Shown in pieces: positions 3 through 20,012 of a stretch of DNA of 24,004 nucleotides. Positions within the stretch are counted from its first letter, which is position 1. The number at the start of each line of letters is the position of its first letter. The DNA lies in the IMG/VR virus record IMGVR_UViG_3300027365_000405, positions 1 through 24,004 of that record; one strand, given 5' to 3'. The translations under genes were made by a program, and so were the position numbers. The stretch is from a virus. Under the pieces are notes generated by a model. The model saw only the letters and a program-made list of their open reading frames with translations. It did not search any database and was not told where the DNA came from.

Positions 3-641
3 ATGAACATCATCATTGCTGCATCAGGACCTTCCTATAAAGATTTAGATAAGAATCTTCTCTATCAAAATGAAGATACTGTTATCATTGCAGTGAACGG
101 TGCTTACGAGTATCTTAATTACAAAGCCGATATCTTCTTTACTCTAGATCCATCACCCGCCAATTTGAAGCGTCTATCTGTACGAAGTGAAACTTTGATG
201 TATTGCGCGACAGATAAAAAATGTCGTGTGCTACTTCCTGATCATGTGATGCCTCTAACGAGAATCTCAACCCAACCTAAAGAAATTCTTCCTAAAGGAA
301 CGTCTAAGTATTGGTTCCATCGATGGGGCTGTGTAAAAGGACTAGCAGAGAAAGCGAGTGAGATTCATACTGGCAATAGTGCATATGGTGCACTAGGCCT
401 AGCATATCACCTGCGACCAGAAAAGATTCTTCTATTAGGCGTGGACGGTACTGCACAGCCTCGCTTAACAGGTGAAGGACCATCCAAGTATAGTCTAGTA
501 CATCTTCCATATCTGTTTAGCACAGCCGTTAAGCAACTAGAATCTGCTGGTATTGAGGTTGTAAATGGAAGTCCAACATCAGCAATTGATTGCTTTCCAA
601 GAACTACACCAGAGAGAGGTATCGAGTGGATTCAACAGTAG
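3..641 (+). CDS. MptE/DUF115-like Rossmann-type protein (paralogue 1)
   Basis: The product is 212 residues. It opens with a nucleotide-binding-like glycine motif, ASGPS (residues 7-11), after a hydrophobic beta strand, and has a second signature HTGNSAYGALGLAY followed by KILLLGVDGT. The same two signatures occur in the gene at 2205 (GSGPSL; HTGNSGSLGIQLA, KIILIGFDHQ), so the two are paralogues. This pattern resembles the MptE-like/DUF115 family and the GT42 sialyltransferase-like fold, members of which act in pterin or glycan chemistry. The substrate here is unknown. The ATG at position 3 sits in an ATGA, suggesting a 4-nt overlap with a gene left of the window. Its neighbours are a glycosyltransferase and an FkbM methyltransferase, so a glycan-related role is the best inference. 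Family assignment is moderate; function is not established. Confidence 0.7.
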   Translation: MNIIIAASGPSYKDLDKNLLYQNEDTVIIAVNGAYEYLNYKADIFFTLDPSPANLKRLSVRSETLMYCATDKKCRVLLPDHVMPLTRISTQPKEILPKGTSKYWFHRWGCVKGLAEKASEIHTGNSAYGALGLAYHLRPEKILLLGVDGTAQPRLTGEGPSKYSLVHLPYLFSTAVKQLESAGIEVVNGSPTSAIDCFPRTTPERGIEWIQQ

Positions 642-1562: not shown

Positions 1563-2208
1563 TTCTCTGATAGTCAAGATCAATGGTATGGTGAAGCTCT
1601 TCTCAGCCAATGATATGGTAGTTCGAGCGGCTTCAGATGATGCTCAATTCGAACCAGAGACATTTCAGTATTGGTTGAAGCATCTTAAAGAAGATCATAT
1701 CGCTATAGACGTAGGATCCTATACAGGTCTCTATGCTATTGCTGCGCACATGCACGGGTGTACAACACACGCGTTTGAGCCCAATGATCTTGTTCATAGT
1801 CGGTTGTGTGGAAATATTGAGCTAAATCATGCTTACGGCATTCAAACTCATATCGAAGCATGTTCAGACAAGCATGGAATGATGAACTTTGTTCAGAAAC
1901 CAATTCCATTAACTTCTGCTGGGCACATTGGAGATGAAGCTAAAGGTATTCCTGTTGGGTGCAGAATGCTTGATAGCTTCTTTCAATTCAATCAACGGCG
2001 GAAAGTCTGTGCTATTAAGATTGATGTAGAAGGTCATGAACCCAATGTGATTCGCGGTGCATCTAACATCATTGAAAATAGTAAGCCTTTAGTTATAGCA
2101 GAATTCTTGGTTGAAGAACAAAAGGAATATTTGATCGAGTTGATGACAACATTTGGATACAATAAGTTTTTTATTTGTGATGATAGGAACTTAGTGTGTG
2201 AACCATGA
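1552..2208 (+). CDS. FkbM-family SAM-dependent methyltransferase
   Basis: The product is 218 residues. A Rossmann methyltransferase core is visible: motif I AIDVGSYTGLYA (about 51-62), motif II acidic strand end HAFEPN (73-78), and the FkbM-defining KIDVEGHE (156-163) followed by VIRGA. FkbM enzymes are typically O-methyltransferases acting on sugars or other hydroxyls, often in glycan pathways. That fits the nearby glycosyltransferase and the two MptE/DUF115-like genes. The ATG lies inside the 3' end of the preceding gene (11-nt overlap) with GGAGAAG as ribosome site, and the stop overlaps the next start as ATGA. The acceptor cannot be told from sequence. Confidence 0.85.
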   Translation: MKTDSLIVKINGMVKLFSANDMVVRAASDDAQFEPETFQYWLKHLKEDHIAIDVGSYTGLYAIAAHMHGCTTHAFEPNDLVHSRLCGNIELNHAYGIQTHIEACSDKHGMMNFVQKPIPLTSAGHIGDEAKGIPVGCRMLDSFFQFNQRRKVCAIKIDVEGHEPNVIRGASNIIENSKPLVIAEFLVEEQKEYLIELMTTFGYNKFFICDDRNLVCEP

Positions 2209-2807
2209 ACTCAATAGTCATAGTAGGTTCAGGACCATCATTAACTGAGGATCAGATCAAGACGGCATCTGAATCTAATTCAGATGTAATGGTAATTAAT
2301 GATAATTACAAACTTCTTCCTGGGGCAGATTACTTATTTGCCGCCGATCTAAAATGGTGGTATAAAAATTATCATGATGTCCCGAGAGGTATTCAATGCT
2401 ATACCCTATATGACCATCCCACGCATCTAGAAAAACGCCTGAAGGGTGCTAGAGAACGAATTAGAGGGGTTCCATGGTCACGATATATCGAAGATCTAGA
2501 TAGCTTTAAGATTCTCTATCACACTGGCAATTCAGGTTCATTGGGAATACAATTAGCATGTCAGTTAGGCTATACAAAGATTATTCTTATTGGGTTCGAT
2601 CATCAACACACTAATGGTCAGAGACATTGGTTTGGTGATCATGATAGAGCTCATTTCAATAAGAACGCAGATGATCCAGAACGCTGGGTTGACACATTCA
2701 CCACAATCAGTTATTATATACAGAGTCTAGGAATTGACCTAGTGAACTGCAGTACTGAAACCGCCATCACATCATGTCGACGGTCTACATTAAACGAGGA
2801 GTGTTAA
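2205..2807 (+). CDS. MptE/DUF115-like Rossmann-type protein (paralogue 2)
   Basis: The product is 200 residues and is a paralogue of the gene at 3-641. The N-terminal strand and VGSGPSLTEDQI (7-18) form the glycine-rich motif, followed by a VINDNYKLLPGADYLFAAD stretch that resembles the second strand and loop of DUF115/GT42-like proteins. The distal signature is YHTGNSGSLGIQLACQLG then KIILIGFDHQ. His-rich loops (DHQHTNGQRHWFGDHDRAHF) may bind metal or substrate. It overlaps the methyltransferase stop by 4 nt. The two copies flank the glycosyltransferase and methyltransferase, implying related but distinct substrates. The biochemical role is inferred, not shown. Confidence 0.72.
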   Translation: MNSIVIVGSGPSLTEDQIKTASESNSDVMVINDNYKLLPGADYLFAADLKWWYKNYHDVPRGIQCYTLYDHPTHLEKRLKGARERIRGVPWSRYIEDLDSFKILYHTGNSGSLGIQLACQLGYTKIILIGFDHQHTNGQRHWFGDHDRAHFNKNADDPERWVDTFTTISYYIQSLGIDLVNCSTETAITSCRRSTLNEEC

Positions 2808-4743: not shown

Positions 4744-5186
4744 CTCGTATCAACACTATTGATGTACAGGATCTTCTTGATCAGCACTTGATGGCTGAAT
4801 ACCGTGAACTTCCTATGGTGGCAGGATCGCTTCGGCGGTCCTTGAAGTCAAAACGAGGTGTAACAGGTATACCCGATCAATACACACTCAATCAAGGACA
4901 TGTTAAGTTTTTCTATAACAAGAAGCTGTACCTTCAACAGCGCTATCGTGAGCTTCTTGTAGAGCTGATATCTCGTGAATATCAGCTAGATCCTACCCGA
5001 CGGCCCGACTTCGATACATTCAACGCTATACCCAATGTCAAGTGGACTCCCACCAGCGACGACCATAAAATACTAATCTCACGTCTCATCGAACGTGTGC
5101 GTCAACGTCCTGATTTCTATCGAATGAGAGGCAAACGCGTTGACGTCGAAGAGTATATTCAACACCTACAGGAGAAGTATCTATAA
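4740..5186 (+). CDS. denV: Pyrimidine-dimer DNA glycosylase/AP lyase (endonuclease V)
   Basis: The product is 148 residues, close to T4 DenV (138). The N-terminus MTRIN and the helix DQHLMAEYRELP (14-25) align directly with T4 endonuclease V, including the nucleophilic N-terminal Thr2 amine, Arg3, Arg22 and Glu23. GHVKFFYNKKLYL and RQRPDFYRMRGK match later conserved blocks. The enzyme cleaves the glycosylic bond of UV-induced pyrimidine dimers and nicks the abasic site, repairing phage DNA in the cytoplasm. Residue 26, an arginine in T4 DenV, is methionine here, and the aromatic C-terminal tail is replaced by a longer charged helix. It overlaps the upstream gene by 4 nt and queE by 1 nt (TAATG), so all three are one operon from P2. 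Confidence 0.93.
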   Translation: MTRINTIDVQDLLDQHLMAEYRELPMVAGSLRRSLKSKRGVTGIPDQYTLNQGHVKFFYNKKLYLQQRYRELLVELISREYQLDPTRRPDFDTFNAIPNVKWTPTSDDHKILISRLIERVRQRPDFYRMRGKRVDVEEYIQHLQEKYL

Positions 5187-6058
5187 TGCTATACAGTGAA
5201 ACATTTAAGAGCATCCAGGGCGAGGGCATCTATACCGGCTACCCTTCCATCTGGCTTCGCACCTATCTTTGCAACTTCGAATGCTCTGGTTTTTCGCAGC
5301 CCGATCCAGCTGACCCATCAACATACCATGATGTAGGTGCTGATGTTGATCTCATCAACGTACAAGACATCACTGATTTACCTGTATTCAAATATGGGTG
5401 TGATAGCGCATACTCCTGGAGCAAGAAGTTCCGTCATCTTCAGCATGAGGAAACCGCTGAGGAGATTGTACAGCGTCTGGGGGATTATCTTCCTGAGCCG
5501 GGCGTATGGCATAACAGTGATTATGAGTTTCATATGGTGTTTACTGGTGGTGAACCTCTGCTAAAGCGAACTCAGAAAGATATCGTGAAGCTTATGCAAG
5601 CGTGGTCTCAAATGCCGTACGGTCAGCGCCCTCGCTATATCACGTTTGAAACAAACGGAACTCAGAAGATCATCCCTGAACTAGCCGAAGAGCTGAATGC
5701 TGACTGGGTAGAAGAAGTCCTGCTATCTTATTCACCTAAACTGCTACACGTATCCGGCGAGAGTAACAAACGAGCCATCAAGCCGGAGACGATTCATCAT
5801 AACATTCGTGTGCTGCGGAATGTACGATTTTCATTGAAGTTTGTGGTGAATTCTGACCCACGGGCATGGGATGAGCTCGACTGGGCGATTGATGAAATTG
5901 GCCTTGGCAAGAAGCCGGTCTGGATCATGCCGGTAGGTGGTCGCGTCGAAGATCAAGAAGCCACAGCAGGTGATGTAGCGGATATGGCCATCGCTCGTGG
6001 CTTCAAGGTGTCAGCCCGCGTGCATGCATATCTTTGGGGAAATTCTGTAGGGAAGTAG
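5186..6058 (+). CDS. queE: 7-carboxy-7-deazaguanine synthase, radical SAM
   Basis: The product is 290 residues, longer than cellular QueE (about 210-230). It begins with the diagnostic SETFKSIQGEG(I)YTGYPSIWLR, and has the radical-SAM GGEP (121-124) and FETNGT. It converts 6-carboxy-tetrahydropterin to 7-carboxy-7-deazaguanine using SAM and a 4Fe-4S cluster, the third step towards preQ0. The cluster motif is unusual: Cys29 and Cys33 have normal CX3C spacing, but the expected third cysteine (residue 36) is Phe; the likely replacement is Cys72 in KYGCDSAYSW, after a 36-residue insertion. It is translated by TAATG coupling to denV and is about 3 kb from folE and over 6 kb from queC and queD, all in the same window. 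Identity is strong; the cluster ligation is inferred. Confidence 0.93.
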   Translation: MLYSETFKSIQGEGIYTGYPSIWLRTYLCNFECSGFSQPDPADPSTYHDVGADVDLINVQDITDLPVFKYGCDSAYSWSKKFRHLQHEETAEEIVQRLGDYLPEPGVWHNSDYEFHMVFTGGEPLLKRTQKDIVKLMQAWSQMPYGQRPRYITFETNGTQKIIPELAEELNADWVEEVLLSYSPKLLHVSGESNKRAIKPETIHHNIRVLRNVRFSLKFVVNSDPRAWDELDWAIDEIGLGKKPVWIMPVGGRVEDQEATAGDVADMAIARGFKVSARVHAYLWGNSVGK

Positions 6059-6087: not shown

Positions 6088-7347
6088 AGTTACGATAAAT
6101 TTGTAGATTTATCTAAACGCTTCACCGAGGTTGCTAGATGAGCATCAATCTTCTCGCCTAGTCTTATATCCTCTCCACGTTTGTAATCGACCAACTCGGC
6201 CGATACTTCATTTAAGGGCTGTCCAGTTAAATCTGAATAACCCTTAAATAAAATATTTTTAGCAGCATTAAGGTCTCTGTCATGATGAACCTCGCAAGAA
6301 GAACAAGACCACTCACGAACTGATAGATCTTTCTTTCCGTCTCTGTGACCACAACTAGAACAAATCTGACTACTAGGATAGAATCTGTCAATCTTGACAA
6401 AGCTCTTTCCATACCACTTGCTTTTATATTCTAGCTGTCTAACAAACTCACTCCATCCAACATCAGACACAGACTTAGCTAGATTTCCCTTCTTCAAACC
6501 AGTAACATTTAAGTCTTCAGTGGCAATAACATCAAACCCTCTCACAAGAGTTGTTGTCATGCAATGGAGGAAGTGTTTTCGCTGATTAGAGATTCTCTCA
6601 TGAACGCGAGCAACTTTTATGCGCTGTTTTTCATACCGCTTGCTACCTTTCTGTTTTCTTGAAAGGTGTTTCTGTTCCCTAGCAAGTTTCGCTTGGCTCT
6701 TACGATACCATCTAGGGTTGCTAACTACATCTCCGTTCGAAAGTGTGAATAAATCTTTCAAACCAAGATCAATGCCGACTGACTTTCCTGTCATAGGAAG
6801 CAAATCAACATTGATCTTGACTAGAATAGAAACAAAGAACTTCCCTGTAGGAGTCTTTGATATTGTTACAGATCGATAGTCGGCATCTTCAGGTATATCT
6901 CGATCGATCGCTGCATGTACATGGCCAATTTTCTCGAGACGAATAGTACTAGAATTTTGATCCAATTTGAACTTTTGATTAGGAAGCCGATATGATTGGC
7001 GTCCTTGTTTCTTTTTGAACGACATTCTTCCTAATCGCACTTTCCGTCTCTTATTGAAAAACTGTCTCTTTGTCTCAGAGAAATCCATTCTCTTCTGTTG
7101 AAGTGCCGCAGCGGAGACATCTTTCAACCAAGGAAAACGACTATCCTCCTTGATAGTCTTTTCTGACATTTTGGGGTTGAATGAAGAAGAACCATAAGAA
7201 TTGAAATTCTCAACAAGCTGATTCCACACAACACGAACACACCCAAAAGTCTGATTCAACTTTTCTTGTTGATCATCCGTCGGGTAAATTCGGAACTTAT
7301 AAGCTTTGAGGATTTCGTTTTTCATAAATCTATTTATTATGTGTTCC
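6088..7347 (-). mobile_element. tnpB-only insertion (approximate limits)
   Basis: The element is placed between the left promoter-like sequence ending at 6087 and the duplicated promoter sequence beginning at 7348. The right limit is supported because similarity between the repeats at 7348 and 7809 stops there. Terminal palindromes typical of TnpA recognition were not identified with confidence, so the exact ends and target site remain open. Confidence 0.45.
6090..7325 (-). CDS. tnpB: TnpB-family RNA-guided nuclease (IS200/IS605 OrfB, IS1341-type)
   Basis: I start at the ATG at 7325 (411 residues), matching the usual N-terminus (MKNEILKAYKFRIYPTDDQQEKL); a GTG at 7361 would add 12 residues. 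In this numbering the RuvC-like triad is intact: Asp186 in GIDLGLKD, Glu270 in IATEDLNV, and Asp351 in HDRDLNAAKNI. A zinc finger CSSCG (322-326) and CSSC (341-344) lies between the last two, as in active TnpB. TnpB is the DNA nuclease of IS200/IS605 elements, directed by an omega RNA encoded at the 3' end of its own gene; it favours retention and spread of the element. No tnpA is present, so it could move only with help or by homing. It is the only complete minus-strand gene in the window and separates queE from the next plus-strand operon. Confidence 0.93.
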   Translation of the reverse strand: MKNEILKAYKFRIYPTDDQQEKLNQTFGCVRVVWNQLVENFNSYGSSSFNPKMSEKTIKEDSRFPWLKDVSAAALQQKRMDFSETKRQFFNKRRKVRLGRMSFKKKQGRQSYRLPNQKFKLDQNSSTIRLEKIGHVHAAIDRDIPEDADYRSVTISKTPTGKFFVSILVKINVDLLPMTGKSVGIDLGLKDLFTLSNGDVVSNPRWYRKSQAKLAREQKHLSRKQKGSKRYEKQRIKVARVHERISNQRKHFLHCMTTTLVRGFDVIATEDLNVTGLKKGNLAKSVSDVGWSEFVRQLEYKSKWYGKSFVKIDRFYPSSQICSSCGHRDGKKDLSVREWSCSSCEVHHDRDLNAAKNILFKGYSDLTGQPLNEVSAELVDYKRGEDIRLGEKIDAHLATSVKRLDKSTNLS

Positions 7348-7380
7348 GGGGTTGCCATCACCGCAGAAAGATGCTATAAT
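7348..7380 (+). promoter_or_regulatory. Sigma70-type promoter P3 (repeat copy 1)
   Basis: TTGCCA (7352-7357), 17 bp, TATAAT (7375-7380), with a TGC extended -10. The 33-nt block from GGGG to TATAAT is repeated at 7809-7841 with one difference. It lies 168 nt upstream of the gene at 7493, in tandem with P4, and just upstream (divergent) of tnpB. Confidence 0.85.
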
Positions 7381-9066: not shown

Positions 9067-9747
9067 ATGAGCAACAAAAACGATCCTAAGCTAGGCCAGG
9101 AAGTAAAACAGTATCTCATCAGCATGGGCGTAGAAAGCCCCGTCGACTACGATGTATACTGCAGCACCACTAGCCAAGAAAAGGTAGACCTCATTACCGA
9201 TCGAATGACTGACATTCTACAGACAATCGGTTTTGACCTATCTAATCCTTCAGTAGAAGATACACCTAAACGCGTCGCAAAGATGTGGGTTAACGAGGTC
9301 ATGACTGGTCTTGACTATGATAATTTTCCACGTATCATGACATTCCCTAATGAGTTTAATACGACTGGGATGGTGGTCGAACGTGGCGTGACGAGTATGT
9401 CTCTATGCTCTCATCACCTTGTTACTATTGACGGTACCGCGACTATTGCGTATATCCCCAAAGACAAAGTACCCGGTATCTCGAAGATTGCACGCGTAGT
9501 AGATTTCTTCTCGCGTCGTCCTCAGGAGGCTGAACGGCTTACTCTTCAAATCTACTATGCACTGCAATACGTGCTAGAGACTGACGACATTGCAGTATTC
9601 CTCGACGGTGTTCACTACTGCATGAAGTCACGGGGTGTGAAGGATGCTAACGCTTCTACTTCTACAGTGAAGCTTGGCGGGGACTTCCTCAATGACCCAG
9701 CTGTACGACAGGAGTTCTATGGAATCGTAAACTCATCTACTAAGTGA
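9067..9747 (+). CDS. folE: GTP cyclohydrolase I
   Basis: The product is 226 residues, about the family length (E. coli 222). DTPKRVAKMW (65-74), SLCSHHLVTIDG (112-123), YIPKDKVPGISKIARVVDFF, RPQEAERLT and GVHYCMKSRGV are all classic FolE-I blocks. Zinc ligands are expected to be Cys114, His117 and Cys185, with catalytic His116 and His183. It converts GTP to 7,8-dihydroneopterin triphosphate, the entry step to both folate and 7-deazaguanine synthesis. With QueD, QueE and QueC present in the window, the deazaguanine role is clearly the intended one. It is a single gene behind promoter P6, with the dpdA promoter immediately downstream, so precursor supply can be controlled apart from the rest of the pathway. 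Confidence 0.96.
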   Translation: MSNKNDPKLGQEVKQYLISMGVESPVDYDVYCSTTSQEKVDLITDRMTDILQTIGFDLSNPSVEDTPKRVAKMWVNEVMTGLDYDNFPRIMTFPNEFNTTGMVVERGVTSMSLCSHHLVTIDGTATIAYIPKDKVPGISKIARVVDFFSRRPQEAERLTLQIYYALQYVLETDDIAVFLDGVHYCMKSRGVKDANASTSTVKLGGDFLNDPAVRQEFYGIVNSSTK

Positions 9748-9756
9748 TTAGGTAAG

Positions 9757-9795
9757 TAGTACAGATAGGGGCTGTTCCATATAATGGCAGCCCCT
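9757..9795 (+). promoter_or_regulatory. Promoter P7 inside an inverted repeat (dpdA operon)
   Basis: TATAAT (9780-9785) lies in the loop of AGGGGCTG (9767-9774)/CAGCCCCT (9788-9795), an 8-bp stem with a 13-nt loop. The -35 position 17 bp upstream is TAGTAC (9757-9762), which is weak, so an activator or another sigma contact may be needed. The hairpin may also end the folE transcript. Confidence 0.6.
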
Positions 9796-9818
9796 TCATT
9801 ATCTATAGAGGATATGAC

Positions 9819-10595
9819 ATGAAGACAGCACATGAAGCGCCCCTTTCCATCTTTGATATGGTAAGCGACCTCACTGATTATGATTATGCTCTGGTACACC
9901 TGTTTGAAGAAAATCCAGGGTATCTGGCTAAGTTTGAAGAAAAGCGCGATCAAGGCCGCGAGATCATTCTAGATAACTCTATTTTCGAGCTAGGAGAATC
10001 ATTCGACTCCGAACGCTTTGCTCATTGGGTTCGTCATCTCAAACCCACCTGGTATATCATTCCCGATGCACTAGAGAAGAAAGATGATACTATCGCTAAA
10101 CTCGATGATTTTCAATCTCGCTTTCCTGATCTGCCTGGTCAATCCATTGGCGTGGCGCAAGGTAAATCATATGATGAGATGGTAGAATGCTACCAGTATG
10201 TTGCACCTCGAGTGGACAAGGTAGCGATTTCATTCGACTATAGCTTCTTCGTAGATTGGTTTCCTAACGAGAAGACGAAGTATCACGCGTACATGAAAGG
10301 TCGTCAACGACTGATTCAACAGATGATCGACGACGGTGTTATTCGTTTTGATCAACCACACCATCTACTAGGCTGCGGCCTACCTCAGGAATTTAAAGCG
10401 TATAAGGATTATCATTGGATCGATAGTATGGACTCTAGTAATCCTGTAGTACATGGACTGCTGGGTATTCCGTATACCGAGGAAGGACTTGAGGATAAAT
10501 CATCCATCAAGCTATTCACTCTGGTCGACGATGAAGTAGACAATATCGATCTGATTCGCTATAATATTAACAAATTCCGAGAGTTCGTATCATGA
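9819..10595 (+). CDS. dpdA: DNA 7-deazaguanine transglycosylase, phage DpdA family
   Basis: The product is 258 residues, a compact TGT-like TIM-barrel protein. Conserved elements are LDNSIFELGESFD (51-63) with candidate catalytic Asp52, YIIPDAL (79-85), IGVAQG (110-115, matching the VQG strand of tRNA-guanine transglycosylases), HLLGCGLPQEF (182-192) and DSMDSSNPV (202-210) with a candidate second catalytic Asp. DpdA enzymes exchange guanine in DNA for a preformed 7-deazaguanine base, making the phage genome refractory to restriction. The start has GAGGA upstream and a dedicated promoter. The next gene overlaps by 4 nt. It heads an eight-gene operon containing queF, queC and queD. DpdA subfamily and sequence context of the exchange cannot be told by eye. 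Confidence 0.87.
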   Translation: MKTAHEAPLSIFDMVSDLTDYDYALVHLFEENPGYLAKFEEKRDQGREIILDNSIFELGESFDSERFAHWVRHLKPTWYIIPDALEKKDDTIAKLDDFQSRFPDLPGQSIGVAQGKSYDEMVECYQYVAPRVDKVAISFDYSFFVDWFPNEKTKYHAYMKGRQRLIQQMIDDGVIRFDQPHHLLGCGLPQEFKAYKDYHWIDSMDSSNPVVHGLLGIPYTEEGLEDKSSIKLFTLVDDEVDNIDLIRYNINKFREFVS

Positions 10596-11086
10596 TATGG
10601 ATCGCTTTATATTCACAGACAGGGTCAGAACTTCAAACGATCACAGAGCGGCTGGGGAGAGATCCTGATCTGGTGTTGACAAACAACAAACAGGCGCGCT
10701 TTGGGTTGATTTACGATCACCAGACTATCGAAGATACTCTTATGTCGATTGATGATAAATGCATCATCACACTGCACGGATATCTTCGGATTCTATCACC
10801 GCGTGTTTGTAGTAAGCATTATATCATTAACGGACATCCGGGACCGATTCATCTCTATCCAGAACTGAAAGGAAAAGATCCTCAGGTTCGTTGGTTTGAG
10901 AATCGCGATCAATATGATGTCATGGGTGCCGTTCTCCATGAGGTGATACCTGAGGTAGACGAAGGTCGAATTCTCAGCACTTTCACGTCTTCTTATAAGC
11001 CTGATAATATTGATGATGTGTTTAAGGCTCTAAAAAACATGTCGTTCGACATGTGGTGTAATTTACTAAGGGAGGAGCTACGTTGA
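10592..11086 (+). CDS. PurN-like formyltransferase, candidate dPreQ1 formyltransferase (DpdN)
   Basis: The product is 164 residues, somewhat shorter than PurN (about 210). The formyltransferase active site is intact: Asn80 and His82 in IINGHPGPIHLYPEL correspond to PurN Asn106/His108, and Asp123 in LHEVIPEVDEGRIL matches Asp144, with His116 seven residues before it just as in PurN. LKGKDPQ replaces the usual KYPG loop. GART-type enzymes transfer a formyl group from 10-formyl-tetrahydrofolate to an amine. It overlaps dpdA by ATGA and sits with QueF, which makes the aminomethyl group of preQ1. The best inference is therefore formylation of dPreQ1 in DNA (or of preQ1), the activity proposed for phage DpdN enzymes. 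Acting in purine synthesis is less likely given the context. Confidence 0.78.
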   Translation: MIWIALYSQTGSELQTITERLGRDPDLVLTNNKQARFGLIYDHQTIEDTLMSIDDKCIITLHGYLRILSPRVCSKHYIINGHPGPIHLYPELKGKDPQVRWFENRDQYDVMGAVLHEVIPEVDEGRILSTFTSSYKPDNIDDVFKALKNMSFDMWCNLLREELR

Positions 11087-11601
11087 AGATTGGTCTGCTG
11101 GGTGCACAAGGAACTGGGAAGACAACGCTGCTCGAGAGCGTGCACGGTTATCTACCCGAGTACGAAAAGTGCACAGAAGTGACTCGCTGGGTGAAGAGTC
11201 TAGGTGTTGATATCAATGAAGGCGGATCAGATCTATCACAACAACTGGTATTGATGAAACACCTAGAGAACTTATTCCTGCATGATTATATGATTACTGA
11301 TCGTACTTTGATTGACGGATACGTATATACGTGGTGGTTGAACAAACAGGGTCAGGTATCAGATAATATGGTGCACAAGACAGAAGACGCCATGCATCGA
11401 CTGCTTCATCACTATGATTTGCTGTTTTATCTTCCTATTGAATTTGACGTGGTAGACGATGGGGTACGCTCTATTGACAATACATTCCGTAATGAGATCG
11501 ACGCTAAGTTTCAGATAGTAGTGGAGACCTTTCAAATCCCCTCGCTCTGCGGTTCTATCGACCAACGAGTATCAGCACTACTAACTCACTTTGACCCTTG
11601 A
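11083..11601 (+). CDS. P-loop NTPase/kinase-like protein (AAA_28/NadR-like)
   Basis: The start is TTG 11083, overlapping the previous stop as TTGA, with a very strong GGGAGGAG seven bases upstream. The 172-residue product begins directly with a Walker A motif GAQGTGKTTL (7-16). DYMITDRTLIDGYVY (67-82) gives the Walker B/DR region typical of nucleoside or nucleotide kinase-like P-loop proteins, and LLFYLPIEFDVVDDGVRS resembles the kinase strand before the lid. AAA_28/NadR-type proteins phosphorylate nicotinamide riboside or related small molecules. Lying between the formyltransferase and queF in one operon, it may phosphorylate a pathway intermediate or a further DNA-modification moiety; that is inference. 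It could alternatively be a general dNMP kinase. Confidence 0.78.
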   Translation: MKIGLLGAQGTGKTTLLESVHGYLPEYEKCTEVTRWVKSLGVDINEGGSDLSQQLVLMKHLENLFLHDYMITDRTLIDGYVYTWWLNKQGQVSDNMVHKTEDAMHRLLHHYDLLFYLPIEFDVVDDGVRSIDNTFRNEIDAKFQIVVETFQIPSLCGSIDQRVSALLTHFDP

Positions 11602-11621
11602 GAGACAGGAGCTCTGAAAGA

Positions 11622-12539
11622 ATGACCAACATTAACGACATTGCCGGTCGGCACCTAGGCAAAGCTGGTGACGGTAGCACAGTAAAACCCTACGTCACAC
11701 CAGATAACGTAGACCCTGATCTGCTAGTAGGAGTTCCTCGCTCTTACAACCGCACTGACTACAACATCGAAGAAGATAATCTACCATTTATCGGTTTCGA
11801 TGTTTGGAACGGATACGAATTCTCCTGTCTTCTCGACAACGGATATCCAGTATCTGGTGTCGTGCGTGTTGTATATCCGGCGAACACCCCTAACATCGTC
11901 GAATCGAAATCCATCAAACTCTACCTAAACTCGTTTAACATGGCTCGAATGGGTAAAACGATTGAAGAGGCGGTAGAGCGAGTAGAAGGCAACATCACTC
12001 AAGATCTTACTGAGTGTGTGGGTGGCCAACCAGATGTTACTCTTCATCTTACCACCAGCCCTTCTAGAAGCTATGTATCTCCTCTTGATGGTGATTACGA
12101 TGTACTTGAGAGCATGGTAGATGTGGAGAATATTGAGTTCACCGCATACAATGAAACACCTGATACGCTACAAGTGGTAGACGGTCATACTCACGATCGA
12201 ATTCAATCCAGCAGTCTGCGTTCTAACTGTCGTATTACCAATCAACCTGATTGGGGTGATATCTTTATCGTCTACACGGCAGATAAAGGAGTCACTAACG
12301 AGTCGCTTCTGCAGTATATCGTATCCATGCGTAAGGAGAATCACTTCCACGAAGAGATTTGTGAGTGTGTGTATAAGCGGCTATACGACTTGCTTGATCC
12401 GGTTGAGCTCATGGTAGCATGTCTATACACTCGACGTGGTGGGATTGACATTAACCCAGTACGAGCCACTCACGACCATCTGCTCACCCACCCCATGCTC
12501 AATAGCAAACTGCTAGTAGATAAAACTATTCGTCAATAA
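11622..12539 (+). CDS. queF: NADPH-dependent 7-cyano-7-deazaguanine reductase, two-domain type
   Basis: I choose ATG 11622 (305 residues) because the N-terminus then matches bimodular QueF (IAGRHLGKAG ... LLVGVPRSYNR); a TTG at 11598 would overlap the preceding gene. The family fingerprint ESKSIKLYLNSFN, the catalytic SNCRITNQPDWG (Cys followed seven residues later by Asp, as Cys190/Asp197 in E. coli), FHEEICE and YTRRGGIDINP are all present, at full length. QueF reduces the nitrile of preQ0 to the primary amine preQ1 with two NADPH. In the operon it lies just upstream of queC, whose product it consumes. Its presence strongly suggests the modified base is preQ1-derived. Confidence 0.96.
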   Translation: MTNINDIAGRHLGKAGDGSTVKPYVTPDNVDPDLLVGVPRSYNRTDYNIEEDNLPFIGFDVWNGYEFSCLLDNGYPVSGVVRVVYPANTPNIVESKSIKLYLNSFNMARMGKTIEEAVERVEGNITQDLTECVGGQPDVTLHLTTSPSRSYVSPLDGDYDVLESMVDVENIEFTAYNETPDTLQVVDGHTHDRIQSSSLRSNCRITNQPDWGDIFIVYTADKGVTNESLLQYIVSMRKENHFHEEICECVYKRLYDLLDPVELMVACLYTRRGGIDINPVRATHDHLLTHPMLNSKLLVDKTIRQ

Positions 12540-12548
12540 GAGGGATAT

Positions 12549-13292
12549 ATGGACCTTCAACAAGCCATTGATACACTACCTGATACTTCTCAACCCGTAG
12601 TAGTAACTCATAGCGGAGGAATGGACTCCTCCGCTGGAGTCATTCTCGCTGTTGAGAAGTATGGCGCCGAAAACGTGATCTCTGTTGGATTTAACTACGG
12701 GCAGAAACAAGTAGTAGAGCTAGAACGAGCTCAAGAACTGTGTAATATTCTGGGAGTAGAGCGACACGTTCTCGATCTTGACGTGTTGAGTGATATTGCA
12801 CGTCCAGTATCGGCTAACATTCAATCCTCTACCATTGATATGCCGTCGATTGAGGATGTGCTAGGCGACCCTCAGCCTAAAACAGAAGTTCCGTTTCGAA
12901 ATATGATTCTATTTTCGTTGACTGCGGCTCTTGCTGAGGCTCGAGGGGCATCACATATCATCTGCGGTCTGCAGGTACATGATGCATACGCGTATTGGGA
13001 TACTACTCAAGCGTTCGTAGATGCCATCAATCATACATTTCATCAGAATCGCAAACATCCTATTACTCTAGTGGCGCCGTTTGGCCATCTATCGAAGACA
13101 GAGGAGCTATCTCTTGTAGATCAAGCCGGTAAAATGTATCTCATGAGTCGCACTCTTACTTGCTACAATCCAGATGAGAAGCATCGATCTTGTGGGCGGT
13201 GCCCTTCTTGTTCAGAGAGAATCATGGCGTTTATGAATATGGGTATGCGCGATCCCATTGAATACCAAGTAGACATTCCCTGGAGCGAATGA
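12549..13292 (+). CDS. queC: 7-cyano-7-deazaguanine (preQ0) synthase
   Basis: The product is 247 residues, slightly longer than cellular QueC (about 220-231). It has the PP-loop ATP pyrophosphatase motif SGGMDSSAG (22-30), the FNYGQKQVVELERA block, VPFRNMILFSLTAALAEARGA, and the C-terminal zinc site CYNPDEKHRSCGRCPSC with four cysteines. It converts 7-carboxy-7-deazaguanine plus ammonia and two ATP to preQ0. GAGGG precedes the ATG. The next gene, a class II glutamine amidotransferase, begins four bases after the stop, which recalls the fused Gat-QueC proteins of some phages and archaea. Confidence 0.96.
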   Translation: MDLQQAIDTLPDTSQPVVVTHSGGMDSSAGVILAVEKYGAENVISVGFNYGQKQVVELERAQELCNILGVERHVLDLDVLSDIARPVSANIQSSTIDMPSIEDVLGDPQPKTEVPFRNMILFSLTAALAEARGASHIICGLQVHDAYAYWDTTQAFVDAINHTFHQNRKHPITLVAPFGHLSKTEELSLVDQAGKMYLMSRTLTCYNPDEKHRSCGRCPSCSERIMAFMNMGMRDPIEYQVDIPWSE

Positions 13293-13295
13293 TAT

Positions 13296-13904
13296 ATGTG
13301 CGCTATTTTCGGTAGTATGGATGTAGGGGAGTTTCGGCTCCTCGCATCACTCAACCAATATCGCGGCTCTCATAGTTACTCTATTGCCGAGTATCGAGAC
13401 GGTGATATTCGGTTGAAAGAACAGCAACTAGGCACCAGTCATTTCGTGGTAGAAGGCAAAGGACTTCATATCGGTCATGTGCAGGCGCCTACAACATCTG
13501 ATCGTGATATTAGCAACATTCATCCTTGTCAAATGAACGGTAATATGCTATGGCATAACGGCATCATCAAAGATAAACAAGTAGCACAATGGCGAGGTGA
13601 ATCGGAAGATATTGCCTGGGACACTTACTGGCTCATGAAGAACCTCGAAGAGCGAGGATGGGGCGTTTTATCTGAAACTGACGGAGCATTTGCCTGCCTT
13701 TACTTCTATCAAGGTGAGCTGTATTTGTTTCGCAATCACAACTGCCCTATGTTTCTCAAAGAGTCGACTTTTTCTTCTACGCGTTTCGATAAGAGCTCGC
13801 CTATTAAATCAGGTGTAGTATATAAGTACGATGGAAGCGCATTTGCGTCTACTGATATCACGTTTAACACCAATCAACCTTACTTCTTCAGTCTCAACTC
13901 ATAA
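13296..13904 (+). CDS. Stand-alone class II glutamine amidotransferase domain
   Basis: The product is 202 residues. The Ntn-type catalytic cysteine is Cys2 (MCAIFGS), and the other conserved elements are present: YRGSHSYSIAEY (22-33, counterpart of RGxDSxGI), GHVQAPT (60-66), WHNGI (86-90, oxyanion Asn/Gly) and TDGAFACLYF (128-137). It would release ammonia from glutamine for a partner enzyme; it has no synthase domain. It begins four bases after queC. In Gat-QueC fusions this domain is joined to a QueC domain and enables conversion of preQ0 to the formamidine G+. Here the domains are separate genes, so it may partner QueC either to feed nitrile formation or to make a G+-like base. The assignment to the amidotransferase superfamily is firm; the partner is inferred. 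Confidence 0.85.
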   Translation: MCAIFGSMDVGEFRLLASLNQYRGSHSYSIAEYRDGDIRLKEQQLGTSHFVVEGKGLHIGHVQAPTTSDRDISNIHPCQMNGNMLWHNGIIKDKQVAQWRGESEDIAWDTYWLMKNLEERGWGVLSETDGAFACLYFYQGELYLFRNHNCPMFLKESTFSSTRFDKSSPIKSGVVYKYDGSAFASTDITFNTNQPYFFSLNS

Positions 13905-13913
13905 GGATATAGA

Positions 13914-14405
13914 ATGATTCATATTGCATCTCATCTCACTCAATCTGAACTTACCAATATTCTAGAAGGTGATGTTCAACCTAATGCTGTTGATCTGCGC
14001 GTGGCTAAAGTGATGCGCATTAATAACGACCCCTTTATCATTGATGAAGAACGGAAAGTTCATCGCGGATCGGTAGAGGTAGAAGTGAACGAGGACGGCT
14101 ATTGGGAACTGGAACCAGGCTCGTACGAAATTGTCATGGATAACGCCGTCAAGGTAGGAGTTGGTGAATCGGGTTTCGTCATCACACGCTCTACCCTCAA
14201 TCGAAACGGAGTGTACATCACCACCGGTCTATATGATTCTGGCTATCATGGGATGATGGCTGCTGCCTTGCACGTTCAGCGTGGTGTAGCCTATATTAAG
14301 CCGGGTACTCGTGTGGGTCAGTATCTGTGCTTTGAATCAGAGACTCTCAGTGAGTATGATGGTGATTACGGTTTCAACAAAGAACACGATCAAAAATACG
14401 TTTAA
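13914..14405 (+). CDS. dUTPase/dCTP deaminase-superfamily nucleotide hydrolase
   Basis: The product is 163 residues. Trimeric dUTPase/Dcd motifs are seen in order: PNAVDLRVAKV (23-33, motif I), FVITRSTLNRNGV (88-100, motif II), TTGLYDSGYHGMM (103-115, motif III) and PGTRVGQYLCF (130-140, motif IV). The catalytic-loop Asp108 in DSGY fits dUTPase; the Glu typical of dCTP deaminase after motif III is not obvious. No classical glycine-rich motif V is present, though YDGDYGF may replace it. Such enzymes hydrolyse dUTP (or deaminate dCTP), keeping uracil out of DNA. It is embedded between the amidotransferase and queD in the deazaguanine operon, so action on a modified dNTP cannot be excluded. Confidence 0.8.
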   Translation: MIHIASHLTQSELTNILEGDVQPNAVDLRVAKVMRINNDPFIIDEERKVHRGSVEVEVNEDGYWELEPGSYEIVMDNAVKVGVGESGFVITRSTLNRNGVYITTGLYDSGYHGMMAAALHVQRGVAYIKPGTRVGQYLCFESETLSEYDGDYGFNKEHDQKYV

Positions 14406-14415
14406 GGAATAGCTA

Positions 14416-14997
14416 ATGGGAATCAAGATTAAATCTACCAAGTCTTTTTATCATATGCCTGTAGCTCATGCGCAGTATCATGATATGACACCCGAGCGTA
14501 CACCAGGGGCGTGTGCGGCGATCCACGGATATGATCGCTCAGTTCATCTTACATTTGCTGGCGAGGTAGATGATCACGGGTGGATCTATCCATTCGGTGA
14601 CCTCAAACCGGTTAAGGAATTTCTAGAATACTATTTCGATCATACCCTGGTATTACCAGCCGATGACCCGAGGCTAGAGAATATCCCAGTAGAGATGATG
14701 GAGTGTGGTCAGCTGCTCGGTGAGATGCGCATTCTGCCTTATGGCGTCTCCATGGAGATGAGTTCGCTATTCGCCTGGGAGTATATTAATCCCTATATCT
14801 ACCACACTACAGGCGGTCGTGTATATCTAGAGAAGATTGAATTTCGTGAGCATGAGAAGAACTCAGCTTTTCTAGAGGTCGATGAGGAGACGGCGAAGAA
14901 GCAAGCTGAGCGGTATCGTTCAGATGCCGATCTGCTGGTGAAGGTGATCATGCATGCACATCAACCACCCAAGGATGCGCTGGCACAATACAGTTGA
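14416..14997 (+). CDS. queD: 6-carboxy-5,6,7,8-tetrahydropterin synthase-like protein
   Basis: The product is 193 residues, longer than cellular QueD (about 120-140). The recognised core runs SFYHMPVAHAQ (10-20), GACAAIHGYDRSVHLTFAGE (31-50), GWIYPFGDLKPVKEFLEYYFDHTLVL (55-80), with Cys33 as the catalytic thiol and Asp75-His76 as the catalytic pair. QueD makes 6-carboxy-tetrahydropterin from dihydroneopterin triphosphate, feeding QueE. The zinc-binding HGH is HGY here (His37, Tyr39), so the third zinc ligand differs; His18 and His37 are kept. The C-terminal third is an extra helical extension. It is the last gene of the dpdA operon and its stop overlaps the next promoter. Identity is strong, metal site unusual. 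Confidence 0.87.
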   Translation: MGIKIKSTKSFYHMPVAHAQYHDMTPERTPGACAAIHGYDRSVHLTFAGEVDDHGWIYPFGDLKPVKEFLEYYFDHTLVLPADDPRLENIPVEMMECGQLLGEMRILPYGVSMEMSSLFAWEYINPYIYHTTGGRVYLEKIEFREHEKNSAFLEVDEETAKKQAERYRSDADLLVKVIMHAHQPPKDALAQYS

Positions 14998-15665: not shown

Positions 15666-16991
15666 ATGTCTGATTTCTTTTATACGTATTATCGGCGTCA
15701 TGGGAATAAGATTCTCATGCGTTATGTTAAGAACGGCAAGGCTAAGAATCGAGTGATCGACTTCTATGAGCCCACCTTATACGTCGATACAGCAGAAGAC
15801 AGTGATATTACTAACATCTACGATCAGCGCGTTAAACCAGTGTCGTTTGACTCGATGAAGCAAGCTGACTCATTTGCCGAGCAGTACAAAGACGTGGATG
15901 GAATGAACGTATATGGCAACAACGATTATACCAATCAGTTCATCATTGAGTTGTTTGATGGTGATACACCAAACTTTAACGCCGATCAAATCAAGATTGG
16001 TTATATCGATATCGAGGTCCACGCAGAGACCTTTCCTGATCCAGAGGAGCATCGCTGGCCGGTGAATGCGATCACTGTCTATAACTCTACCAGAAAGCAG
16101 TATATTACATGGGGTTTGGAGCACGGTGAATCATATTCACAGGAGAACCAGCACGAGAAGGTTCAGTCGCTGAATGTGGATTATCGTCCGTTTAGTGATG
16201 AAAAAGATATGCTGCGTGATTTTCTTCTTCACATGAATCAAGAAGAGTATCACATCACTACAGGATGGAACTCAGAGTTATTCGATTGGCCGTACCTCAT
16301 CAATCGGTGCTATCGTCTTTTCGGTGAAGCATATACTAAGAAGATGCTATCACCATTTAACATGATTCAGCGTACAGAAGTTTCTGGTGCGTTTGGTGGC
16401 AAGCCAAAAACGAAATACAAAGTGGTAGGGGTGCCAGATCTAGACTATATGGCACTATACAAGAAGCACGTATTCGTGCCACGTGAATCATATAGACTAG
16501 ATTTCATCGCAGAGGCTGAACTAGACGAACGCAAATTGGACTACTCTGAGTACGGTGGTCTAGACACCTTGTACTTAGATAATTACCAGTTGTTCATTGA
16601 CTACAACATCATCGACGTAGATCTTATCCGTCGTCTAGACGAAAAGCTCGGCCTGTTCAATCAAACATACGCGCTAGCTTACTACGCACTCACCAACTAC
16701 GAAGACACTCTCGGCACAGTGCGTATATGGGAGCACTTGATCGCCAAGTTTCTATACAAGCAAGGGCAGGTGCCGCTGTACTTTGGCATCAGGGGTGTAG
16801 ATCGATCCTTTCAGGGTGCATATGTGAAGGAACCGCGACCAGGGATGTATGAGTGGGTGGTAAGTTGTGATCTTAATTCACTATACCCTCACATCGAAAT
16901 CCAGTATAATATAGGACCCGAAACCCATCTAAATATTGATTCAGTAGAACAGAGAGCCCTCGATGAAATCAATCGCAGACTTAAAGAATGA
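15666..16991 (+). CDS. 43A: DNA polymerase gp43, N-terminal cistron (exonuclease and palm start)
   Basis: The product is 441 residues and corresponds to the N-terminal half of T4 gp43. Exo I is GYIDIEVHAETFPDP (Asp115, Glu117; T4 Asp112/Glu114), Exo II GWNSELFDWPYL (Asp207) and Exo III YNIIDVDLIRRLDEK (Asp317). The palm begins and polymerase motif A is SCDLNSLYPHI (Asp402). The reading frame then leaves polymerase similarity after GPETHLNIDSVEQR (about residue 430) and ends with nine residues and a stop read inside the homing-endonuclease insertion. Motifs B and C are in the separate cistron at 18678. The two proteins must assemble to give an active replicase. AAGGAG precedes the ATG. Confidence 0.94.
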   Translation: MSDFFYTYYRRHGNKILMRYVKNGKAKNRVIDFYEPTLYVDTAEDSDITNIYDQRVKPVSFDSMKQADSFAEQYKDVDGMNVYGNNDYTNQFIIELFDGDTPNFNADQIKIGYIDIEVHAETFPDPEEHRWPVNAITVYNSTRKQYITWGLEHGESYSQENQHEKVQSLNVDYRPFSDEKDMLRDFLLHMNQEEYHITTGWNSELFDWPYLINRCYRLFGEAYTKKMLSPFNMIQRTEVSGAFGGKPKTKYKVVGVPDLDYMALYKKHVFVPRESYRLDFIAEAELDERKLDYSEYGGLDTLYLDNYQLFIDYNIIDVDLIRRLDEKLGLFNQTYALAYYALTNYEDTLGTVRIWEHLIAKFLYKQGQVPLYFGIRGVDRSFQGAYVKEPRPGMYEWVVSCDLNSLYPHIEIQYNIGPETHLNIDSVEQRALDEINRRLKE

Positions 16992-18699
16992 AGTATTAGA
17001 CACGAATATTATTAGATCTGACGGGAAAGTAAACTCTAATATAATACGACATCTAGACAATCATCCTCGTATTAAGAGCATTGTACGCGATATACACAAC
17101 TACTATAACGCGCCAGGCGACTTAAAGTCTAGCTATTTGATAGTGCTCTGTATAAATGGTTATAAATCTCTACCAACATGCTCGGAATGCTCTGCGGTAC
17201 TAACGCATAAGGCCATACGAAATGTAAGCCCTATTGTTATATCCAGCTACTGCAGCCATAAGTGCGCAGGCACGAGTCAAAAACGAAAAGACAAACGAGC
17301 GACAACATTCGTGGAGCGGTATGGCGTAGAATATCCAAGCCAGCGAGAATCTTTTAAAGATTCTATGAACACTCCTGAGATGAGGAAGAAGAAAGCCGAC
17401 GCTATGCACTCATACTATAACAATTTGAGGTCGAGCGGGGCGTTCGATGACGAGATGGGGAAGCGAAACGAGAAGAGAAGGTCTACCGCCATAGAAAAAT
17501 ACGGTTCGTACGACGAATATATTGAGACGCGGGTTACATCATATAAGAATAACAACGATATGGAAGATGTTAACAGTCGACGCTCTGCATCGATTCGCGA
17601 TACTATTATTAAGCGATACGGCTCCTATAAAAGTCTACAAAAGCATAAGAAGCCGTATACTAACCCCAACTACCTGCGTATGTCCTCTGACCAGGTAGAT
17701 ATACTCACCAATAGAGATTCGTTTGTTAAGGAGCTAGAAAACAGTAATGATAGCATCGAGTATATGTCTGCTCGAACAGGCCTCGCTGTGTGTACTCTGT
17801 ACCTAAAGTGCAAGCAATTTGAAATAGAGCGAAACGGAAACATATCGTATCCCCATATCCTCATAATGAACATGCTTGACGATATGAGAGTTGACTATAC
17901 TATAAACGATAGAACTATTATCACTCCATATGAAATAGACGTGATGGTGGGAGATTCGATTGGAATTGAAATTAACGGTGTGACCTGGCATAGTGACAAA
18001 GTAAGAGATAAGAATTACCACTTGATGAAAACAGAAATGGCATCAACTCGTGGAGTGCACCTAATTCACTTGACTGACGTTGAGATAATCAACAACCAGT
18101 ATAAAATCGAATCGTTCTTAGCGTCTCTGGTTAACAGTGATATCAGAGTGTTGTATGCTAGAAAGTGTAGTGTGGTTGAGATAGAATTGTCGCGCTATCG
18201 CGAACTCTGTAATATGTGGCATATGCAAGGGTACGCGTATGCCGATTGTGTGTACGGGCTCGAATATGAAGGCGAGCTGGTTCAAGTTATGTCTTTTTCT
18301 CGTTCTCGTTTCAATCAATCATATCAATACGAGCTTGTGCGTTTGTGTACAACACGCCATACAAGGGTTGTCGGAGGAGCATCGCGTCTACTGTCACGCT
18401 TTAAGAAGGAAAAATGCCCCTCTTCGATAATATCGTATTGTGATCGATCTCTTCATACAGGAAGAGTATACGAGCAGTTAGGTTTTATATATGATGGTGA
18501 TACTAATATAGGGTATCGCTATTATAAGAGCGGTAAGCTATACTCTCGCTACACCTTTCAAAAACATAAGCTCAAGGATAAATTTCCAGACATTTGGAGC
18601 GAAGACAAAACAGAATATGAAATCATGTCAGAGGCAGGATATCTAAGAATATGGGATTGCGGAAATCGGAGGTTTGTATGGAACGACAGAGACTACTAG
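16963..18699 (+). CDS. Large homing endonuclease with EDxHD/Vsr-like nuclease domain
   Basis: The product is 578 residues and occupies essentially the whole insertion in gene 43, overlapping the first polymerase cistron by 29 nt and the second by 22 nt. The N-terminal part has a zinc-finger-like CSECS...CSHKC and repeated YG motifs (ERYGVEYPSQ, EKYGSYDEY, KRYGSYKS) common to phage homing endonucleases. The nuclease core is PYEIDVMVGDSIGIEINGV (from 322) with WHS, then YHLMKTE: Glu324, Asp326, Glu336, His343 and Lys356 fit the EDxHD/Vsr-like fold of I-Bth0305I-type enzymes. A C-terminal domain (from about 395) starts LYARKCSVVEIE. The enzyme should cut gene 43 lacking the insert and drive its spread. 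Codon use (many ATA, AGA) differs from neighbours. Confidence 0.88.
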   Translation: MKSIADLKNEVLDTNIIRSDGKVNSNIIRHLDNHPRIKSIVRDIHNYYNAPGDLKSSYLIVLCINGYKSLPTCSECSAVLTHKAIRNVSPIVISSYCSHKCAGTSQKRKDKRATTFVERYGVEYPSQRESFKDSMNTPEMRKKKADAMHSYYNNLRSSGAFDDEMGKRNEKRRSTAIEKYGSYDEYIETRVTSYKNNNDMEDVNSRRSASIRDTIIKRYGSYKSLQKHKKPYTNPNYLRMSSDQVDILTNRDSFVKELENSNDSIEYMSARTGLAVCTLYLKCKQFEIERNGNISYPHILIMNMLDDMRVDYTINDRTIITPYEIDVMVGDSIGIEINGVTWHSDKVRDKNYHLMKTEMASTRGVHLIHLTDVEIINNQYKIESFLASLVNSDIRVLYARKCSVVEIELSRYRELCNMWHMQGYAYADCVYGLEYEGELVQVMSFSRSRFNQSYQYELVRLCTTRHTRVVGGASRLLSRFKKEKCPSSIISYCDRSLHTGRVYEQLGFIYDGDTNIGYRYYKSGKLYSRYTFQKHKLKDKFPDIWSEDKTEYEIMSEAGYLRIWDCGNRRFVWNDRDY

Positions 18700-20012
18700 A
18701 GATTAAGGATTACATTGAGTCGGGTCAATTTCGGATGGATCGTGAAAAGTATACTGTTGACGATATCATCAATGAGCGCTTAGATGATAGGTTTCGTCGT
18801 TGTGTGCAATTGGCTGATGCTACCATGGCAGCCAACTTCCACTTCTATCGACGCGATAAACCATCATTCTTTAGTTCTATCAAGAGCGAGCTATATAACG
18901 AACGCAAGACATACAAGAAGAAAATGCTTGAGCAAGAGCAGTTAATGGCCGATGCACCGACCAAGGAAGAGAAACGCCAATATTCGTCTGCTCAGTCACA
19001 ATACCATAATATGCAAATGGCTTTGAAGATCCTCTTGAATGGGGGATATGGAGCTCTCGCAAACAAGCACTTCCTTTACTACATGGTGGATAATGCCGAA
19101 GCTATCACTGCATCGGGTCGCCTCATCAACAAGTGGGCGGGCACTCGAGTAGATGGCTTCCTTAACAATATACTAGGCAAGGGCACCTACTGGATCTACA
19201 GTGATACGGATAGTGGGTACTTCACGCTGAAGCCTTTCGTAGAACAGGTGTTTGGTGGTGATGTAGATGATAAACAATCTGTTGTGAACGCGATCGATCA
19301 ATTTTACAAGGAGGTGCTAGGACCAAAGATTGATGATTTCGCGCAAGACATGTGCGAATATGTTAATGGTCGAGAGCAGAAGATGGTATGGGAGCGCGAG
19401 GTAATATCCGAGCGCGCTGTGTGGTTGGCGCGGAAGCGATATGTAATGACGGTGTGGGATAATGAGGGTGTTCGATACCATAAAGAGCCTAAGCTCAAAT
19501 ACATGGGCGTAGATGCTGTACGATCATCTACACCAGCTTGGTCTCGTGAAGCACTAAAAGAGTGTTATATGATTGCACTTACAGATGGTGAACGAGCTGT
19601 ACAGCAGTATATCTCTGAGGTGTATGATAACTTCCTATCCAAACGCGTTGATGAAATTGCTATTCCTACTGGCGTCAATGGTATACTAAAGTATGCTGAT
19701 GATGATAACATTTTCATTAAAGGCACACCCAAGCACGTCAAAGCAGTTCTCATTCACAATTACCTGGTAGATCAATACAACGCTAATGTCAACAAGATTA
19801 CAGACGGTAACAAAATTAAATATGTTCCGCTCAAGATGCCGAATCCTATTAAACAGGAAGTGGTAGCGTTTGAACAATTTCTCCCTAAAGAGTTTAAAGT
19901 AGACGAATACGTAGACTATGACGCTGTGTTTGAACGAGCCTTTGCCAAACCGGTAGATGCTTTTCTATCGCCTATTGGGTGGACGGCTGAAGAAACCAAC
20001 ACACTGTTTTAA
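18678..20012 (+). CDS. 43B: DNA polymerase gp43, C-terminal cistron (fingers, palm, thumb)
   Basis: I choose ATG 18678 (444 residues), six bases after GGAGG inside the endonuclease gene; an in-frame ATG at 18651 has no ribosome site and would add residues foreign to polymerases. Early residues (ERQRLLEIKDYIESGQF, then KPSFFSSIKSELYNERKTYKKKM) match the T4 region before the fingers helix. Motif B is ALKILLNGGYGALANKHF (Lys117, Asn121, Tyr124, Gly125) and motif C IYSDTDSGY (Asp176, Asp178). REVISERAVWLARKRYVM, KYMGVDAVRSSTP and a C-terminal WTAEETNTLF follow T4 gp43, the last being the likely clamp-binding tail. It is in the same frame phase as the N-terminal cistron. It supplies two of the catalytic carboxylates, the first being in 43A. 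Confidence 0.94.
   Translation: MERQRLLEIKDYIESGQFRMDREKYTVDDIINERLDDRFRRCVQLADATMAANFHFYRRDKPSFFSSIKSELYNERKTYKKKMLEQEQLMADAPTKEEKRQYSSAQSQYHNMQMALKILLNGGYGALANKHFLYYMVDNAEAITASGRLINKWAGTRVDGFLNNILGKGTYWIYSDTDSGYFTLKPFVEQVFGGDVDDKQSVVNAIDQFYKEVLGPKIDDFAQDMCEYVNGREQKMVWEREVISERAVWLARKRYVMTVWDNEGVRYHKEPKLKYMGVDAVRSSTPAWSREALKECYMIALTDGERAVQQYISEVYDNFLSKRVDEIAIPTGVNGILKYADDDNIFIKGTPKHVKAVLIHNYLVDQYNANVNKITDGNKIKYVPLKMPNPIKQEVVAFEQFLPKEFKVDEYVDYDAVFERAFAKPVDAFLSPIGWTAEETNTLF

Follow-up and report, generated by a model that had tools for sequence, protein, structure and literature searches.

Asparagine synthetase B combines a class II amidotransferase (GAT) and an ATP-PPase in one chain and passes ammonia between the two. 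In the archaeal GMP synthetase the ATP-PPase and the GATase are encoded separately within one operon (PMC13329287). The preQ0 (7-cyano-7-deazaguanine) synthase QueC takes ammonia as its nitrogen donor, and the residues Y35, R99, Y131 and Y189 of the E. coli enzyme are essential by experiment (PMC13329287). A class II GAT and a QueC also occur together in Gat-QueC, the archaeosine synthase of Crenarchaeota and 9g-type siphoviruses, and it is the fused Gat-QueC of the 9g-type phages that makes dG+ (PMC6884629). The 7-deazaguanine cluster of Schizotequatrovirus (KVP40, 6E35.1a) has the gene order queF-queC-gat, in which gat encodes a free class II GAT.

We found this order in a 24-kb virus record, IMGVR_UViG_3300027365_000405, the whole of which is referred to as the window. 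A run of plus-strand genes (9067-14997) comprises, in order, folE, a DpdA-like gene, a PurN-type formyltransferase gene, a kinase-like gene, queF, queC, gat, a dCTP deaminase-like gene and queD (Table 1). The queE gene stands apart from the run, separated from it by a transposase-like insert that is encoded on the opposite strand. Compared with the Schizotequatrovirus cluster, a small DpdA-like protein replaces DpdA2, and the formyltransferase and the kinase-like protein are added. The Pfam and PHROG matches, together with 107 related loci, bear out the initial annotation in that a free amidotransferase gene follows queC in an operon with QueF. The dCTP deaminase-like neighbour is probably outside the queC-gat pair. 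We consider it likely that QueC and GAT form a two-subunit glutamine-dependent preQ0 synthase, which feeds the formation of dPreQ1, probably formylated, and not of dG+. Elsewhere in the window, two MptE-like proteins are encoded at the left end, and a DNA polymerase is split within 15666-20012 into two pieces parted by a 578-aa ORF; a search for an intron at this split gave no Rfam match.

Table 1 Features of the window, with the matches on which their assignment is based.
Feature	Position	Strand	Matches and remarks
MptE-like protein	3..641		PF01973
MptE-like protein	2205..2807		PF01973
queE, radical SAM	5186..6058	+	PHROG 2076, E 8.2e-50
TnpB/IS605 OrfB-like gene	6090..7361	-	PF01385, PF07282, PF12323; between queE and folE
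folE, GTP cyclohydrolase I	9067..9747	+	PF01227, E 1.3e-52; NF006824 over cut-off
DpdA-like transglycosylase candidate	9819..10595	+	PHROG 19058, function unannotated
PurN-type formyltransferase, candidate dPreQ1 formyltransferase	10592..11086	+	family profile vs PurN structures, E 2e-12
P-loop kinase-like protein	11083..11601	+	PF13521, E 1.2e-11; PHROG 2107 (thymidylate kinase), E 3e-28; between formyltransferase and queF
queF, bimodular NADPH-dependent preQ0 reductase	11598..12539	+	PF14819, E 4.9e-30; PF14489, E 1.1e-23
queC, preQ0 synthase, ATP-PPase subunit (247 aa)	12549..13292	+	PF06508, E 1.3e-50
likely gat ribosome-binding site and 3-base junction	13281..13295	+	GGAG about 10 bases before ATG, inside the queC end
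gat, free class II (Ntn) amidotransferase, predicted QueC glutaminase subunit (202 aa)	13296..13904	+	PHROG 12378, E 1.2e-36
dCTP deaminase-like protein	13914..14405	+	PF22769, E 3.2e-13
queD	14416..14997	+	PHROG 2389, E 7.8e-32; TIGR03367 weak
DNA polymerase, piece	15666..16991		same frame as the other piece
578-aa ORF	16963..18699		other frame; REase_MTES_1575 match weak
DNA polymerase, piece	18651..20012		same frame as the other piece

The QueC of the window scores 159 bits against TIGR00364 (cut-off 150.3) and keeps the SGGxDS, VPxRN and zinc Cys motifs as well as all four positions essential in E. coli. It shares with the canonical QueC (PF06508 Cluster 1, PMC13329287) the fold, the zinc site, the ATP loop and all four essential residues. 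Two canonical motifs are altered, YxQxHxxE to YGQKQVVE and YPDC to YWDT. GAT-adjacent QueCs as a group differ from the canonical enzyme in the same places, with Gln for the His of YxQxHxxE and Trp, His or Phe for the Pro of YPDC, and in having GAT as a constant neighbour.

The free GAT belongs to PHROG 12378, a phage family whose function is unannotated, and reaches 26.9 bits against PF13522 (E 5.2e-6, cut-off 27). A profile of the GAT family matches the glutaminase domain of E. coli GlmS with E 1.8e-6, and PurF is next. Grouping with unrelated PurF/GlmS-type enzymes had been named beforehand as an outcome that would speak against a partnership with QueC; this holds only in the trivial sense that no solved structures lie closer in sequence than GlmS and PurF, and the gene next to gat is in every case queC. 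Among 40 GAT relatives C2, R23-G24, H76, N88-G89 and D109 are invariant, and all align with catalytic or binding positions of GlmS. They include the class II features of a Cys after the Met (C2), the oxyanion N88-G89 and the substrate-amine D109. The class II Arg is missing. GlmS Arg73, a ligand of the glutamine carboxylate, has Q63 at its position, again invariant in the 40 relatives, whereas the fused Gat-QueC retains the Arg. As Q63 replaces the glutamine-binding Arg, the donor may be other than glutamine, or the activity may differ.

An AlphaFold model of the tethered pair, for which the in-frame read-through translation served as a modelling device with no readthrough claimed, has a pLDDT of 91.6 and a pTM of 0.72. 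Among solved structures it matches QueC (3bl5 and 2pg3) best, followed by PurF and EgtC. Structure prediction of the pair had been proposed as a check, and the model gives a hint of contact between QueC and GAT; the GAT-Dcd tether of similar proportions (pTM 0.54, pLDDT 81) is a weak control, with an alignment that is faulty in the GAT C-terminus. EgtC, of class II Ntn fold, hydrolyses a gamma-glutamyl amide. This match and the invariant Gln63 would suit a GAT that serves QueC as a non-classical glutaminase, either with another amide donor or as a regulatory or scaffold subunit. We regard such a role as improbable, given that the nucleophile, the oxyanion Asn-Gly and the amine-binding Asp are invariant, which argues that catalysis and not scaffolding is selected.

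A tblastn search located GAT in 52 phage records, including KVP40-like vibrio phages, Pseudomonas phage pf16 and Vibrio phage 2.275.O. A further match, weak and partial, is to an unrelated protein of an Alcaligenes phage. Searching IMG/VR with a profile yielded 314 relatives, 80 of which were kept. That GAT could be a common bacterial enzyme was rejected, since a search of 84,980 cellular genomes yielded no more than 4 matches, each of them on a small metagenome contig. The existing annotation of gat in KVP40 and 6E35.1a is hypothetical or nucleophile aminohydrolase.

The pairing of the two genes is constant. The queC gene precedes gat in 107 distinct loci, with no fusion among these pairs, and three further gat loci without queC are on contigs that are small or end near gat. 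When at least 5 kb upstream of gat is available, queC is found in 50/50 loci and queF in 33/50. The spacing in the window, given as four bases in the initial annotation, is 3 bases (13293-13295) between the queC stop at 13292 and the gat start at 13296. Of 105 loci (among the 107) with a mappable gat start, 80 have the two genes at most 20 bases apart, mostly with a one-base stop/start overlap of the TAATG type, and this arrangement suggests coupled translation of queC and gat. Translational readthrough from queC into gat, which are in frame in the window, was rejected because only 10 of the 80 close pairs share a frame. In separated pairs the insert is often 5'-nucleotidase-like or YhhQ-like (L062:7493-7996, L035, L044; L085:7377-7997, L131); the YhhQ-like (preQ0 transporter) calls are a reading of the sequence.

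What surrounds the pair is variable. QueF, the formyltransferase and an ArcS-like protein may each be present or absent, and the DpdA may be of either type, but queC is always adjacent to gat. Contigs of 73, 98 and 117 kb, which may be incomplete, carry the adjacent pair and gave no match to QueE (sought with the window protein as sole query), DpdA-like proteins, QueF or ArcS-like proteins. It had been considered that GAT acts later, for instance by amidating preQ1 or a DNA-bound base or by forming a formamidine on either, and the position of gat near QueF and the formyltransferase in the operon would agree with this. Such a later step is very unlikely, since gat follows queC in all contexts, even where no other que gene was detected, and the isolated queC-gat pairs show no downstream gene. 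With the pair constant and its surroundings variable, GAT behaves as would be expected of a subunit of QueC and not of a helper of QueF, of DpdA or of a step on DNA. The initial annotation had also offered the reading that the amidotransferase feeds ammonia to QueC, and this is the one favoured here, as gat tracks queC whatever the downstream context.

Another proposal was that the pair is a split Gat-QueC which makes G+ (formamidine) from preQ0, so that the phage has two modified bases or QueF and GAT compete. The two systems do share features. The GAT domain of the fused Gat-QueC, the enzyme that makes dG+ in the 9g-type phages (PMC6884629), is homologous to the free GAT (hhalign probability 96%, E 1.9e-9), and the His of YxQxHxxE is absent from the QueC of both in their phage forms. 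In the window, however, the N-terminal GAT fusion is replaced by two genes in reversed order, Gln takes the place of the GAT Arg, and QueF is present, its gene ending 9 bases upstream of queC. QueF accompanies the fused Gat-QueC in 0/54 well-flanked loci and the split pair in 80/124 (p 9e-19), although the locus counts take in related sequences, so that the p values overstate independence. The PF14489 matches in the 9g-type phages BRET and Quinobequin-P09 were discarded as QueF candidates, as they fall on folE and are a T-fold cross-match. The "GATase/QueC fusion" of Bacillus phage BSTP5 (L011:2989-3660) is a wrong annotation, the protein having 223 aa and no GAT domain. The QueC motifs differ as well, YGQKQ/YWDT in the split forms versus YGxRxE/YPDN in the fused ones. 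The best QueC tree places the split forms in a single, fully supported clade that lies beside the canonical QueC and apart from the fused clade. A joint clade of split and fused QueCs stands unrejected in the AU test (p 0.47), which allows them a common origin; descent of the pair from a fused Gat-QueC that broke in two finds no support in the best tree, and the same p value leaves room for it. Apart from the placement of the QueC clade, the split pair appears from its sequence to lack those hallmarks of the Gat-QueC G+ synthase that were tested.

Published DNA analyses of relatives also bear on the product. Vibrio phage 6E35.1a, with the gene block queF-queC-gat, has 15% of its dG modified, and the observed mass of 295 Da is consistent with dPreQ1 (PMC12028318); a minor unreported amount of dG+ could be present. 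Phage nt-1 carries queC-gat with an ArcS-like PF17884 protein in the place of QueF, and no QueF was found across the whole 247 kb. In the DNA of nt-1 dPreQ0 predominates, accompanied by dADG and about 0.02% dG+, and the authors of that work noted that the phage encodes a homolog of ArcS, a known type of G+ synthase (PMC6884629). The traces of dG+ could be taken as a sign of G+ synthesis by the pair, but they need no GAT because nt-1 carries the ArcS-like gene, and the base that prevails when no QueF competes is dPreQ0. With dPreQ0 predominant in nt-1, which is without QueF, and dPreQ1 in 6E35.1a, preQ0 is the product to be expected of the pair itself, with the base set by the enzyme that comes next. 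A split Gat-QueC for G+, or a pair of modified bases, is unsupported by these measured relatives and by the occurrence of the pair both with and without a QueF that fused forms never have, and we think it unlikely. For the window phage we expect dPreQ1 as the base, probably in formylated form.

Of the proteins proposed for the following steps, QueF scores 239 bits against TIGR03138, under the cut-off of 293, and has both halves of the enzyme with the motifs ESKSxKLYLxSFN and SNCxITxQPDWG, which contain ESKS and the catalytic Cys. The formyltransferase, a candidate DpdN-like enzyme, has the catalytic Asn-His-Asp (N80, H82, D123) invariant in 20 members; DpdN and DpdM were reportedly named in a 2023 paper. 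Its gene is present in 26/33 loci with QueF versus 0/17 without (p 3.5e-8, with independence again overstated by related loci). The kinase-like gene occurs in 19/50 loci, always together with the formyltransferase and QueF. The DpdA-like protein matches the DpdA2 family in an hhalign profile-profile comparison (probability 82%, E 1e-5) and conserves GVxQG and DTSNP, and its match to the solved DNA-guanine transglycosylase 7ui4 reaches only E 0.28. At loci with a small DpdA-like protein and no QueF (L027, L032, L055, L069, L079, L089, L090), this protein belongs to a more distant subgroup than at the QueF loci, a division that may mirror preQ0 versus preQ1 as substrate.

The pathway would thus begin with GAT, whose N-terminal Cys2 would hydrolyze glutamine and hand the ammonia to QueC. 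QueC would use ATP to convert 7-carboxy-7-deazaguanine to the amide and then to preQ0, which would be reduced to preQ1 by QueF. The DpdA-like protein would exchange preQ1 into DNA, and the PurN-type protein would probably formylate the preQ1 amine. The outcome would be a single base series of dPreQ1 and probably formyl-dPreQ1, with dG+ not made. The sequence grounds for this proposal are the protein families, the gene order, the constancy of the pair and the absence of the motif His from GAT-linked QueCs, and from these we infer the physical complex, the glutaminase activity, the ammonia transfer and the identity of the final base. A further point against it is that stand-alone QueCs work with ammonia in free form, which makes it less than obvious why a GAT would be required. 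The arrangement has parallels. Asparagine synthetase B works alike, and differs in its one chain, its substrate and its clade. The archaeal GMP synthetase resembles queC-gat in its two genes in one operon (PMC13329287), whereas the GAT here is class II Ntn and not class I, and the substrate is 7-carboxy-7-deazaguanine.

The His of YxQxHxxE follows the presence of a partner. Its position is Gln in 164/164 GAT-adjacent viral QueCs, and it is absent in 80/80 fused viral Gat-QueCs; loci found with the gat pattern are unbiased in this survey and those found with the QueC pattern are biased. Of the 90 viral QueCs classed as stand-alone 84 have the His, which became 85/86 after inspection. The correction removed three fused forms, missed by the classifier or cut by the contig end, and L130, a QueC of the split clade whose short contig has a nucleotidase-like gene at the expected place of gat, and counted CP220, with a gap-shifted His, as having it. 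L099 is the one true stand-alone QueC without the His. Cap9, which joins a protein amine in ammonia's stead, has the motif Y/FxQ(x)5E, again without the His (PMC13329287). The AU test (p 0.47) accommodates a single loss of the His as well as two, and a claim of two independent losses was dropped on this ground. Tentatively, and with somewhat less than even confidence, we suggest that the His helps QueC to handle free ammonium and that QueCs supplied by a partner (GAT-adjacent, fused, Cap9) have lost it. If this is true, the YxQxHxxE motif tells from sequence which QueC-family enzymes need a dedicated amine donor, and gives a sequence mark for the nitrogen source of these enzymes, anti-phage defence proteins now included.

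For the amidotransferase, the analysis gives a likely role to a family of unannotated function that occurs on hundreds of viral contigs as well as in well-studied phages such as KVP40, and sets it apart from the G+ synthase it resembles. Phages with the pair are predicted to draw on glutamine for the synthesis of preQ0, which would be of use in water poor in ammonium.
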